Source: a virus. From it: a DNA stretch of 29,926 bases. The notes beneath the pieces were generated by a model. It saw only the letters and a list, made by a program, of their open reading frames with translations. It was not told the DNA's origin and searched no databases. Each line of letters begins with the position of its first letter. Positions within the stretch are counted from its first letter, which is position 1. The stretch spans positions 1 through 29,926 of the IMG/VR virus record IMGVR_UViG_3300025881_000059, one strand, 5' to 3'. Shown in pieces: positions 12,469-25,358 of the stretch. The position numbers and the translations under genes were made by a program.

Positions 12469-12708
12469 TTAGTATCCCTCTTTGAGACTTCCATCGCCAT
12501 TATACTTACTTTGCATTCCATAGTAACGACTAACTCTCTTTAGCATCTTATTGACAAGTGCTGTACCGTCAATCTTAGGTTCATCAATCCCTCGCTGAGA
12601 GTTGACAGCATTCGCAAAGTCGAGCAAGTAACGCCGTTGTGTCTTAATATCCCCAAAGTGGTAATCGGCGGAAACAGGCTTGCCTACTTTTGGTTGTGCT
12701 CCTAACAT
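12469..12708 (-). CDS. Small hypothetical protein (79 residues)
   Basis: Starts inside the end of the homing nuclease gene (7-base overlap) with AAGGAG about 10 bases upstream, and ends just before the intrinsic terminator. The sequence is basic and mostly helical (QRRYLLDFANAVNSQRGIDE; KMLKRVSRYYGMQSKY), without cysteines or membrane segments. It is probably an original operon member that sat directly after ssb before the homing nuclease arrived. A DNA-binding or replisome-accessory role would fit but no family is recognised. Confidence 0.65.
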   Translation of the reverse strand: MLGAQPKVGKPVSADYHFGDIKTQRRYLLDFANAVNSQRGIDEPKIDGTALVNKMLKRVSRYYGMQSKYNGDGSLKEGY

Positions 12709-13673
12709 ATCTGATGTACTCCTTCTGAGGTTTTAAGTAAATTATCAATTCTTGAGTTTATAGTTCCGATATCTTGAATTCTGTAGCATTCGGTGAACCC
12801 ACCAAATTGTTTCCCTATGTACAGATTCTTTAGTGTATCGTCTCTGTGCAGTTCTTTTTCAAAAGAGAATAAAACTTCCGAATCCCCGTAAACACATCTC
12901 CTAATCTCAACTAAAGCACCATCTAACTCTTTAGATAGGTTAGAAGCTCTGTTCTTGGGACGCTTAGATATTCCCACCTTCCAGAAATTAAACCTCAAAT
13001 CTGGAGTTAACACCTGAAATACGTAGAGATAGGTCTTAGGGAATCTAATCCAATAGTCTTTATCCCACAGTTTCTCGTTACAAGATGAACAACCGGCACC
13101 CGCCATATGTGACCCCGCTCTTTGCCAGAAAATACCGTGTTCTGGACATTCTATTTCAACTTTAGTTTCTTTGTTGACGTAGACCACCGAATCGTAGTTA
13201 TATTTTTCACCATGTGTTGTTTTACACCTATCTAAGAATTCTTCAGTGCTCATCCTGTGTAACTGAGACAGTCTTTCCCTGCTGCAATTTGGACACCCAA
13301 CACCCCGTAGGTGTGCTGTCGGAGAAACCATGAAATCGCCGTGCAGTGGGCAAACCACCGTACCCTTCTCTTTGGCTGATGTAATTTCACACTTCTCGTA
13401 AGAATAACGGTCTCCATACAAGACCGTTGCTCTTTCCACGAAAGATTCCTTACTCAACCTCTTATTGTCACTAGCGGTTTCTCTAGCACAATATGGACAA
13501 CCCGCACCGTTCAAATGATTTGCCGCAGTCTGCTCAAAGGGACCGTGCCTTGCACACGTAATAGTTACCTTCTGGTCCCCACGTACATAGTCCACCATTT
13601 GATAGTCATACAAATTACCGTGCTTTTTTAATGCCCTTTCTATGAAAATACTCGTTGTCAGTTTTTTAGGCAA
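12702..13673 (-). CDS. Homing endonuclease: DUF723-type zinc repeats plus GIY-YIG-like nuclease
   Basis: 323 residues. Three repeats (~6-62, ~74-130, ~141-198) share the pattern F-[IVL]-[ED]-R, Y-X-Y, C-X2-HG-X-F, then H-L-X-G-X-GC-X2-C, with four Cys/His positions each, matching DUF723-type zinc-binding DNA-recognition units of mobile nucleases. Residues ~214-275 look GIY-YIG-like: TYLYVFQVL, then WKVGISKRPKNR, and a Glu in FEKELH as possible catalytic residue. The only usable start is TTG at 13673; no ATG occurs before residue 26, inside the first repeat. The frame is the same as that of ssb and begins 9 codons past the ssb stop. An AGGGG/CCCCT hairpin lies between the two and may mask the ribosome-binding site. 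It is probably a mobile gene inserted after ssb. Confidence 0.8.
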   Translation of the reverse strand: MPKKLTTSIFIERALKKHGNLYDYQMVDYVRGDQKVTITCARHGPFEQTAANHLNGAGCPYCARETASDNKRLSKESFVERATVLYGDRYSYEKCEITSAKEKGTVVCPLHGDFMVSPTAHLRGVGCPNCSRERLSQLHRMSTEEFLDRCKTTHGEKYNYDSVVYVNKETKVEIECPEHGIFWQRAGSHMAGAGCSSCNEKLWDKDYWIRFPKTYLYVFQVLTPDLRFNFWKVGISKRPKNRASNLSKELDGALVEIRRCVYGDSEVLFSFEKELHRDDTLKNLYIGKQFGGFTECYRIQDIGTINSRIDNLLKTSEGVHQIC

Positions 13674-19324: not shown

Positions 19325-19567
19325 TCAATTATCCTCTACGAAATAAACAACAGAATTCTCAAGCAACGCCTTAGTCAACACAAGCAGTTGCTTACCTTCA
19401 GTCTCAAGGTACACAGGGCGACCACTCTTGAGCACCTTCTCGATAGCCTTCTTAAGCTTCTCTTCATCATCTCGGATTGTAAATGTGTGACTCACAAGAG
19501 TTCCCATAAGTTCATCATTAGGTTTTCTCTGGGCTTGTTGACTGGTGATTATCAGTGTTTTCTTCAT
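19325..19567 (-). CDS. Small hypothetical protein (80 residues)
   Basis: The ATG overlaps the stop of the HNH-AP2 nuclease gene (ATGA), so it is coupled to it. Sequence: KKTLIITSQQAQRKPNDELM, then a helix rich in K and E (EEKLKKAIEKVLKSG) and a hydrophobic strand region (KQLLVLTKALLENSVVYFVE). Alpha/beta, soluble, no cysteines. Not recognised. Confidence 0.55.
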   Translation of the reverse strand: MKKTLIITSQQAQRKPNDELMGTLVSHTFTIRDDEEKLKKAIEKVLKSGRPVYLETEGKQLLVLTKALLENSVVYFVEDN

Positions 19568-20091
19568 TGTTCTGCTTCTCCTATATTGCTGTAATCCTTA
19601 TGGTATCGCCTACTGGCCTTACAATACGCCTGATAGGCTTTCTCAATGTCTTTAAAAGTGCCTAGGTAAATAACTTCGCCGTTTACGTTAATCTCTGCCT
19701 GCCACTTTCTTAATTTTTTGTTCCAACACACTCCTCGGTAACCAGAGGTGTTATCCAACCTTTTGCGAGAATTTCTTATATTTTCGGTGTGACTACAAAC
19801 CCGCAAATTACTCTTGCGATTATTTAGTCCATTATGGTCTCGGTGATCTACAACCTGTTTTTCACTTGGGTTGGCCACAACTCGATGCATCAGTATAGTT
19901 TTACGCTTACCTGTGACGCGCTCGTTACGAGCAGCATACACAAGGTTTTCTCCGCAAAACATAACATACCAGTTGTACCCTGAGGCCATCCCTGCGTCCT
20001 CAATATCCACGATAGCCTCATAACCTCGTGTAAGAGGTACATAAGCAACGTCACCCTCGATTCTCAGCTTTCTAGTTTCCACATCTAACAA
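19564..20091 (-). CDS. HNH nuclease with AP2 DNA-binding domain (homing endonuclease)
   Basis: About 172-175 residues. Residues ~66-108 hold an HNH_3-type core: ILMHRVVANP (H69), QVVDHRDHNGLNN (D82, H83) and SNLRVCSHTENIRNS. Residues ~116-165 are an AP2 domain: SGYRGVCWNKKLRKWQAEI, then VIYLGTFKDIEKAYQAYCKA. This pairing is typical of phage homing endonucleases. No ATG starts the frame: the choices are TTG at 20091 and GTG at 20082, the latter better spaced from GGGGG. It follows a promoter-like element and a palindrome, and an unrelated small gene overlaps its stop. It may be a mobile insertion that became coupled to its neighbour. Confidence 0.85.
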   Translation of the reverse strand: MLDVETRKLRIEGDVAYVPLTRGYEAIVDIEDAGMASGYNWYVMFCGENLVYAARNERVTGKRKTILMHRVVANPSEKQVVDHRDHNGLNNRKSNLRVCSHTENIRNSRKRLDNTSGYRGVCWNKKLRKWQAEINVNGEVIYLGTFKDIEKAYQAYCKASRRYHKDYSNIGEAEQ

Positions 20092-22138: not shown

Positions 22139-22656
22139 TGTCTAGGCTCCAGTGTAAAGCGGGACAGGATGGCGTCGGCAGTTACTTGCGAGGTGAACCA
22201 ACGATTGCGATCTATAACCGAAATCAACTCCTCCCGCTGTCGCTCGTGTTGGGATTTTATGGGACGAAAGTCTGAGGGGTTACGGGAACCTTCGTACCCT
22301 TCGCCGTCAATAGCCACAACACAAGCCGGGCCGTCATATCCGACAACTTTTGCGCTCACCCACATCCTGTTAAATATGAACTCACACTCCACGCCCACAG
22401 GCGGCAACCCACCCTCCCACGACAGTGGTTCCTCTCGCTTGGTTGGGCGGGGGATGGCCTCATCCCTTGTAATTCTTAGCGGCACTGAAGCGGCCTGCCA
22501 CTTACGCCCCGTAAAATTCCAAGTAAGGGTATGGTCGCCGCAATCCTGATACCAATCGCCAGAAGGCTCCCAGTGGTGCGTGGCTCCCAATGGCGCAACC
22601 TCAGCCCAGTAATCCGCGTCCACCTTCAACCATCCAATATTAATCTTACTCATCAT
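22135..22656 (-). CDS. Hypothetical phage protein, first gene of the leftward transcript
   Basis: 173 residues; AGAGGAG gives the ATG at 22656 a spacing of 5 (a second ATG follows at once). The N-terminal third is tryptophan-rich (YWAEVAPLGATHHWEPSGDW). The middle has LPPVGVECEFIFNRMWVSAK, VVGYDGPACVVAIDGEGYEG and a DFRPI stretch, the pattern of a small uncharacterised family seen in many phages and prophages. The gene is slightly GC-richer than its neighbours, suggesting a recent arrival. It lies right behind the leftward promoter at 22691-22719. Function unknown. Confidence 0.65.
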   Translation of the reverse strand: MMSKINIGWLKVDADYWAEVAPLGATHHWEPSGDWYQDCGDHTLTWNFTGRKWQAASVPLRITRDEAIPRPTKREEPLSWEGGLPPVGVECEFIFNRMWVSAKVVGYDGPACVVAIDGEGYEGSRNPSDFRPIKSQHERQREELISVIDRNRWFTSQVTADAILSRFTLEPRQ

Positions 22657-22690
22657 CTATTCTCCTCTGTTGTTAACCCTACAATTCCAA

Positions 22691-22719
22691 AGTCTACACA
22701 CAAGCACCTTCTGTGTCAA
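22691..22719 (-). promoter_or_regulatory. Main leftward early promoter
   Basis: On the - strand TTGACA (22719-22714), 17 bases, TAGACT (22696-22691; 4 of 6). It starts the leftward transcript about 30 bases before the first gene. Close to consensus and divergent from two rightward promoters. Confidence 0.75.
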
Positions 22720-22755
22720 CACTAAAGTTCTTTCAAAGAATCTTCTCTGTAGGTA

Positions 22756-22784
22756 TTGACAGAATTCCATTCTCAGGATACACT
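22756..22784 (+). promoter_or_regulatory. Rightward early promoter 1
   Basis: TTGACA at 22756-22761, a 17-base spacer, TACACT at 22779-22784 (4 of 6). It faces the early gene block and would give a leader of over 200 bases that includes the direct repeats. Confidence 0.72.
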
Positions 22785-22842
22785 ATGATCAATAGAAGAG
22801 CATAGAAATGCAGGAACATACTCACGCACACACAAGATGTTC

Positions 22843-22866
22843 TAAAGAACTTTCCAAAGAACTTTC
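22843..22866 (+). repeat. Tandem 12-base repeat (T/C)AAAGAACTTTC
   Basis: TAAAGAACTTTC (22843-22854) is followed directly by CAAAGAACTTTC (22855-22866). The core AAAGAACTTT occurs inverted at 22724-22733. A 12-base period does not quite match one helical turn. Likely binding sites for a regulator or initiator protein. Confidence 0.75.
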
Positions 22867-22943
22867 TTAAGAGTACACAAACACAAGGAATAAAAAAGAA
22901 AAGAAAACTCTCAAGAATTCCTAAGATATTCTTTAGAATAGTC

Positions 22944-22972
22944 TTGACAAAAGGGAGATGGGATGAAACAAT
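22944..22972 (+). promoter_or_regulatory. Rightward early promoter 2
   Basis: TTGACA at 22944-22949, 17 bases, AACAAT at 22967-22972 (4 of 6), about 37 bases before the AGGAG of the first rightward gene. An inverted repeat covers its spacer and -10. Confidence 0.62.
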
Positions 22973-22977
22973 CTCCC
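22953..22977. repeat. Inverted repeat GGGAGAT...ATCTCCC over a promoter
   Basis: Perfect 7-bp arms (22953-22959 and 22971-22977) separated by 11 bases, spanning the spacer and the -10 of rightward promoter 2. Centre-to-centre distance of the arms is 18 bases, close to two helical turns, as expected for a dimeric repressor site. It could also form an RNA hairpin if read from promoter 1. Confidence 0.6.
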
Positions 22978-23016
22978 ACTCACAAGAACCTACTAAAGAA
23001 CGCTTAGGAGAATACT

Positions 23017-23292
23017 ATGGATGACTCTGGACTTGCATCGCTAGGATTTGCTGTTGTGTGTATCTTTTCTGTTGTGCTATTCTTTGGGATAATGTTACTG
23101 CCTGTGCTACTCTTGGTGTACGCTCTGGTGTCACGTCCTACGGACGATATTCCAGAGGAATCCCAAGAAACCCTACAGGTAACACAAGCCACACCAGAAC
23201 AGCCTGTAGAGAACACCAGAGAAGCTGCTAGGGAACGTCTGAAAGCTCTCGGTGTCAATATTCGTTCAGATGTGGTTGTCAAGAGAGGATAG
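23017..23292 (+). CDS. Single-pass membrane protein, first rightward early gene
   Basis: 91 residues; AGGAG at 23006-23010 with 6-base spacing. Residues ~6-38 (LGFAVVCIFSVVLFFGIMLL onward) are one long hydrophobic segment, possibly a helical hairpin. The rest is a soluble cytoplasmic or periplasmic tail with many Q, E, T and P (EESQETLQVTQATPEQPVEN) and a basic end (DVVVKRG). First gene after the divergent promoters, so among the earliest made. A role at the host membrane such as superinfection exclusion or takeover would fit but is not shown. Confidence 0.65.
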   Translation: MDDSGLASLGFAVVCIFSVVLFFGIMLLPVLLLVYALVSRPTDDIPEESQETLQVTQATPEQPVENTREAARERLKALGVNIRSDVVVKRG

Positions 23293-23337
23293 GTGTGCTA
23301 ACCTCTGTAGTTGTAAGATCAATAAAAGGAGAACCAA

Positions 23338-23586
23338 ATGAAAACTATTGAAAAGCTCATCCAAGAATACTATAGTAAGCATAGCAACATAGAGCAGTAC
23401 CGAATGGGGCAGTGGTGGTGTAATGAATACGGGTGGGACCTTGGTGTCTGTCCATGGTCACAACTTTTCTATTGTGAAAGCACAGTTGAGTGTGTTAAGA
23501 TCCTTGACCAGTGGTTGCGTGATAATGGCTATGAGAACCGTAACTTACCTAAGAAAACACAGGAGAAAACAAATGATTCTGAATGA
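23338..23586 (+). CDS. Small hypothetical protein rich in Trp, Tyr and Cys
   Basis: 82 residues; AAAGGAG before the ATG. The central part is aromatic (MGQWWCNEYGWDLGVCPWSQ, LFYCESTVECVKILDQWL) with four cysteines at irregular spacing. The C-terminus is charged and overlaps the start of the next gene. Compact early gene. Not recognised. Confidence 0.6.
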   Translation: MKTIEKLIQEYYSKHSNIEQYRMGQWWCNEYGWDLGVCPWSQLFYCESTVECVKILDQWLRDNGYENRNLPKKTQEKTNDSE

Positions 23587-25091: not shown

Positions 25092-25358
25092 ATGAGTGAT
25101 GCAAACGTAGTAGCAAGACTAATTGACTCAGCGGGTACACGTATGATTTTTCTTGAATATATCAAGAAATCAGGTGAGAAAAGCTCCGGTGTGTTTCATC
25201 CGAAGGTTGTCAAACATCTCCGTGGTGGTGAAGACTCTACAAAACACCTAGCGCATTACCGGAATTTATTTAACCAATCCAAGGGACGCTATGCTAAAAT
25301 TGACATGCGCAAGGTGACACGAGCAAGGATCAACGGACAAACTTACAAATTCGCATAA
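25092..25358 (+). CDS. Small basic hypothetical protein (88 residues)
   Basis: AAGGAG precedes the ATG. N-terminal VVARLIDSAGTRMIFLEYIK reads as a beta hairpin, followed by GVFHPKVVKHLRGGEDSTKH and a basic end (KIDMRKVTRARINGQTYKFA). Overall basic, so nucleic acid or ribosome binding is conceivable. Followed by a hairpin and a new promoter, so it ends this transcription unit. Not recognised. Confidence 0.58.
   Translation: MSDANVVARLIDSAGTRMIFLEYIKKSGEKSSGVFHPKVVKHLRGGEDSTKHLAHYRNLFNQSKGRYAKIDMRKVTRARINGQTYKFA

Follow-up and report, generated by a model that had tools for sequence, protein, structure and literature searches.

Control region between divergent gene blocks of a tailed phage

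Short repeats crowded around two divergent promoters can be read as binding sites, as a replication origin or as part of a transcript. The intergenic region at 22657-23016 raises the question of which. Our window spans an entire IMG/VR virus record (G000; 29,926 bases), which comes from an unclassified tailed phage and probably covers just part of its genome. Structural genes lie at the left of the window, followed from 10.6 to 22.7 kb by a leftward block that encodes an exonuclease, a DNA polymerase, a primase/helicase, and small genes (names assigned partly by eye). Small genes form a rightward block at 23.0-29.7 kb. Inside the replication block, 12702-13673 and 19564-20091 look, judged by eye from the sequence, like two selfish genes – a zinc-ribbon-repeat protein and an HNH/AP2-type endonuclease.

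Phage records contain thousands of relatives of the DNA polymerase, none above 60% identity, with the best in Vibrio phage 11895-B1 (47%). Two close polymerase relatives were identified in viral contigs: L004 (87%), which ends short of the control region, and L005 (76%), which lies within contig G001 (87,036 bases). No close match turned up for the polymerase in bacterial genomes, for the DNA in phage and plasmid records, or for the 173-aa leftward gene. This 173-aa gene looks inserted between the operon and the control region; it is missing at the matching place in L005, and L004 has a different sequence there. The features of the region are collected in Table 1.

Table 1. Features in and around the control region (positions in the window).
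Feature	Position	Strand	Remarks
First leftward gene, 173 aa	22135-22656	-	PHROGs of unknown function; weak match to 3483/7798
Leftward sigma70-type promoter TTGACA-17-TAGACT, towards replication genes	22691-22719	-	Orthologous TTGACA-17-TAGAGT in L005
AAAGTTCTTTCAAAGAATCTTC, inverted copy between both promoters	22724-22745	.	One exact AAAGAACTTT at the corresponding place in G001 (12922-12931)
Rightward sigma70-type promoter TTGACA-17-TACACT	22756-22784	+	Same spacing in G001 copies 1 and 2 and in G003
Conserved leader start (ATCAATAGAAGAGCATAGAAATGCAG ... ACACAAG)	22788-22838	+	Four-way alignment
Three tandem palindromes TTCTAAAGAA / TTCCAAAGAA / TTCTTAAGAG, 12-bp spacing	22840-22873	+	Tandem repeat of the original prediction
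Three further palindromes CTCTCAAGAA, TTCCTAAGAT, TTCTTTAGAA	22908-22938	+	
Hairpin B: stems of 7, 8, 5, and 7 bp, mostly ~5x5 internal loops	22919-23009	+	z-score -6.1
TTGACA, part of the third stem of hairpin B	22944-22949	+	Conserved at this position in 3/4 modules; -35 of a doubtful promoter
Apical stem-loop GGGAGAT-GGGATGAAACA-ATCTCCC of hairpin B	22953-22977	+	
Palindrome TACTAAAGAA, right arm of hairpin B	22991-23000	+	
First rightward gene, small membrane-like protein	23017-23292	+	Relative in L005
Second periodic hairpin, stems of 5, 6, 6, and 5 bp, inside the first rightward gene	23101-23179	+	

Two conserved promoters and a palindromic element

The original prediction described a divergent control region with three promoters. 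Sigma70-like matches do occur at all three places, and the first two retain their spacing in a relative. The third (22944-22972, the second rightward one) is doubtful as a promoter: its TTGACA is conserved and its -10 is not. The divergent control region as a whole is supported: its two promoters are conserved in the relative, the region is conserved independently of the genes beside it, and the other divergent junction described below carries it again. Folding indicates that a small stem, GAACAT/ATGTTC, can form at 22814-22842.

The repeats that drew attention to the region were all recovered. AAAGAACTTTC is present twice without mismatch as a tandem repeat (22844-22854 and 22856-22866), and an inverted copy with a single mismatch lies on the minus strand (22723-22733). 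The related elements correspond to TTCTTTAGAA (22929) and TACTAAAGAA (22991). All three exact AAAGAACTTT copies of the 29.9-kb record fall in this region. Across the window, the 11-mer at two mismatches is only mildly enriched (21 sites vs 13.9 expected). We found that the 11-mer represents the seam between palindromes TTCTWWAGAA that are spaced 12 bp apart. The relative retains TTCTWWAGAA but only one copy of the 11-mer core, and we replaced AAAGAACTTTC with the palindrome as the element. A search of viral contigs for the exact tandem pattern returned none.

Three copies of TTCTWWAGAA stand at exact 12-bp spacing (22840, 22852, 22864), followed by copies at 22929 and 22991. With at most one mismatch allowed, this amounts to 5 sites in 360 bp, where the remainder of the window would predict 0.12, and none of 1000 dinucleotide shuffles of the region reached five. 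The matching region of G001 (copy 1; 12,806-13,289) contains six sites, again with 0/1000 shuffles. TTCTWWAGAA ranks first among 256 palindromes of the same form in the window region and in the matching region of G001; the palindrome was chosen after both regions had been viewed, so the G001 figures are not a fully independent test.

Recurrence of the module at divergent junctions

A scan of the whole G001 contig gave a first peak of palindromes at 12.8-13.3 kb and only one other comparable cluster, at 51.4-52.0 kb. These two clusters are the two main divergent junctions that gene strands define in G001. The promoter of the second cluster, TTGACGGTTATCAGAAATTCCGTTAGACT, equals that of the first in 28/29 bases and is followed by a related leader. 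Searching with a pattern based on the leader start added one further phage, represented by two nearly identical contigs (G003 and G004). The G003 module also lies at a divergent junction, beside relatives of the genes that flank the second G001 module, and outside it the window has no DNA match to G003 (46.8 kb).

The resulting sample is four modules from three phages (window, G001 twice, G003), which share a sigma70-type promoter, the leader start, and a ~90-nt hairpin. The more distant relatives L017, L018, L090, and 11895-B1 have neither palindrome cluster nor hairpin. Over promoter and leader start, the window and G003 are 88% identical and the two G001 copies 80%; corresponding copies compared between lineages reach 70% and 60%, below the within-pair values. 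If the window and G003 came from one kind of phage, these identities would suggest that the two copies evolve in concert.

A hairpin of constant geometry

The conserved hairpin, hairpin B, has the same geometry in 4/4 modules: four stems, each 5-8 bp long and following one another every 10-11 nt, with 4-6 nt of internal loop on either side (2-6 counting longer stems), an apical stem of 6-7 bp, and an apical loop of 10-12 nt. Stem and loop lengths are nearly constant. In the window, its apical stem is the 7-bp inverted repeat that had been noted over the second rightward -10 (GGGAGAT/ATCTCCC, 22953-22959 / 22971-22977). The tandem palindromes contribute the left arm of a weaker hairpin A (22836-22942). 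A sequence repeat noticed by eye can thus be the trace of a conserved fold.

Aligned across the four copies, hairpin B comprises 24 pairs with 96.8% of cells paired, and eight pairs are changed on both sides. None of 500 shuffles matched this pairing, which collapses when slid by 1-3 columns. Because the alignment was built by hand to fit the structure, we added alignment-independent tests. When chains of three or more stems (at least 5 bp each, loops of 2-7 nt) were sought without regard to letters, the window's best chain was hairpin B (27 bp) and the top two of G001 were its two hairpins B (26 and 25 bp), compared with a maximum of 23 bp in fifteen shuffles. The G003 hairpin B, which needs a G-U pair and has mismatches, was missed by this strict scan; as a whole it is not the minimum-energy fold of its copy, for which at best two inner stems are predicted. 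The third best G001 chain lies in the gene corresponding to the window's first rightward gene, and it and the second periodic hairpin of the window are weaker, within or near the shuffle range.

A covariance model found, within these regions, two hairpins outside its training set: the opposite leader of the second G001 module (E 1e-4) and a second G003 hairpin, hairpin C, which has unrelated stems such as CATAGG/CCTATG (E 0.0014, z -4.5). Each hairpin lies downstream of a promoter. At L083 19212-19453, in the leader opposite that of the second module of G003, we also observed a separate promoter-like TTGACG-17-TATACT together with a strong hairpin (z -5.4). Rfam gave no convincing family match up to E 10.

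A probable control leader, acting as RNA or as DNA

The reading that we favor, at about an even chance, is an early promoter with a structured control leader that probably acts at the RNA level. The region would be one of two copies of a tailed-phage master control module, with a pair of host-type promoters driving transcription leftward into the replication genes and rightward into the small early genes. The rightward transcript would open with an untranslated leader folding into one hairpin or several, of constant geometry (5-8-bp stems about every 11 nt, ~5x5 internal loops, a 6-7-bp apical stem). We infer that the folded leader would influence the early transcript in cis, its likeliest target being elongation/termination or transcript stability, and units starting at the modules would then be controlled together.

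The position of the module downstream of the promoters suggests an RNA role. We place the RNA reading first, with moderate confidence, because the paired letters vary with pairing kept, which a sequence-reading protein would not require. A DNA-level role, as an operator or a cruciform, is also possible: the opposite strand folds about as well as the sense strand; A-C mismatches number 28 vs 15 G-U, so that this strand test does not favor sense RNA as the acting form; some palindromes are placed between the promoters; and permuting site order alone did not weaken folding in 3/4 leaders.

The DNA-level alternative that survives best is an operator array, which we consider possible but rather unlikely. 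A dimeric phage or host protein would bind adjacent 10-bp palindromes (core CTWWAG), spaced by one helical turn, and shut down or time both early promoters; the hairpins would then be a by-product of palindrome repetition. Repeated two-fold symmetric sites at helical spacing do stand beside the promoters, the strong palindrome signal and 10-12-bp spacing extend to all modules, some elements lie outside either transcript, and the two strands are equivalent. Palindromes alone, however, fail to yield a four-stem chain or to explain the nested complementary stems. When sites were redrawn from their own profile and gaps were shuffled, the observed chains were reached in 0/400 simulations each for the window and G001 copies 1 and 2; with gaps kept, they were reached in 1-2/400. 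The apical stems, moreover, differ from the palindrome and change letters without losing pairing, and hairpin C of G003 is built from unrelated letters.

An operator would also call for a cognate protein. The original prediction recognized no regulator gene nearby, and our Pfam and PHROGs scans of the flanking small genes agree, naming no DNA-binding protein; nor was any gene found to be linked to the repeat sites, which the product of a small unknown gene may nonetheless bind, as had been suggested. Among the small genes compared, the most conserved encodes a small basic 88-aa early protein (25092-25358; phrog_2267, of unknown function) that is 86% identical to its L005 relative, compared with 76% for the polymerase. 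Its predicted structure is unusable (pLDDT 43).

The region had also been proposed as a replication origin, which we now regard as improbable. At T4-like origins, an R-loop forms at a promoter; here the promoter would make an R-loop over the AT-rich, hairpin-forming stretch, where replication would start. AT-rich repeats do adjoin the replication genes, and cumulative GC skew has its minimum at ~22.9 kb in the window, with a local minimum at ~12.8 kb and the global minimum at 52.0 kb in G001. Skew, however, flips with gene strand everywhere, including at the convergent junction at ~10.5 kb; read on the sense strand, it is 0.16 on the left and 0.17 on the right. Because skew tracks gene strand at divergent and convergent junctions alike, it needs no origin and is uninformative on replication; with no switch seen independently of gene orientation, we rejected it as origin evidence. 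The presence of two such modules per genome and the lack of a recognized initiator gene also argue against an origin.

Least probable of all is translational control by a leader peptide, in which the apical stem would hide a Shine-Dalgarno-like GGGAG and the loop would carry an ATG (MKQSPTHKNLLKNA in the window): a loop ATG follows GGGAG/GGGAAGG in 3/4 modules, but it is missing from the loop of G001 copy 1 hairpin B, the peptides are too unlike to align, and the exact overlap with the hairpin makes the two inseparable. The short reading frame itself, MKQSPTHKNLLKNA*, spans 22964-23008 with the GGGAG inside the apical stem, and ATG positions are similar in two of the other three modules.

Comparison with known control systems

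We return to the RNA reading, in which the hairpin leader is probably a regulatory RNA of an undescribed type. Our searches turned up no description of transcription control in this phage group, and literature on T4-type promoter cassettes and phage leader hairpins yielded nothing directly on point. In the promoter plus terminator cassettes of T4-type phages, the stem-loop is an intrinsic terminator with a U run. No terminator-like site occurs in 22300-23500, which argues against that role for the stem-loops here.

Vibrio phage 11895-B1 (HQ634157) has two divergent TTGACA promoter-like sites in the same position, upstream of small genes, primase/helicase, and polymerase, but lacks the palindrome cluster and any hairpin match. 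The divergent early-promoter operators of phages, where a repressor binds tandem palindromes, likewise combine two divergent promoters with palindromes at helical-turn spacing. In the module described here, by contrast, most sites lie downstream of the transcription start and are nested as complementary pairs, and no repressor gene was seen.

Only a handful of phage leader RNAs have been found to regulate transcription with no protein partner. This compact module, present in two copies and constant in geometry while its letters vary freely, is a testable candidate for protein-free leader control. The closest layout that we found is that of putL and putR in the lambdoid phage HK022 – cis-acting antitermination RNAs, in two ~70-nt leaders of two stem-loops each after the two early promoters, that need no dedicated protein and act via the zinc-binding domain of the RNA polymerase beta' subunit (PMC9378689). 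Both systems are duplicated within the genome, and in both a copy with interrupted stem-loops in the leader follows an early promoter; that the module would lie in an early-promoter transcript fits its position downstream of conserved promoters. Size and geometry of the predicted hairpins differ: the hairpins here are ~90-110 nt with regular ~5x5 loops, they belong to a large-genome phage whose two divergent junctions lie ~38 kb apart in the relative G001, and antitermination is, of the two, known for put. We therefore would not call the module a put RNA on its sequence features, given that the layout is alike and the size and geometry are not. More tentatively, and with considerable doubt, we suggest a new class of phage regulatory RNA, in which short stems once per A-form turn would head the early units radiating from two divergent junctions and, in the manner of put, would target the transcription complex of the phage itself, the two copies staying similar inside each genome.
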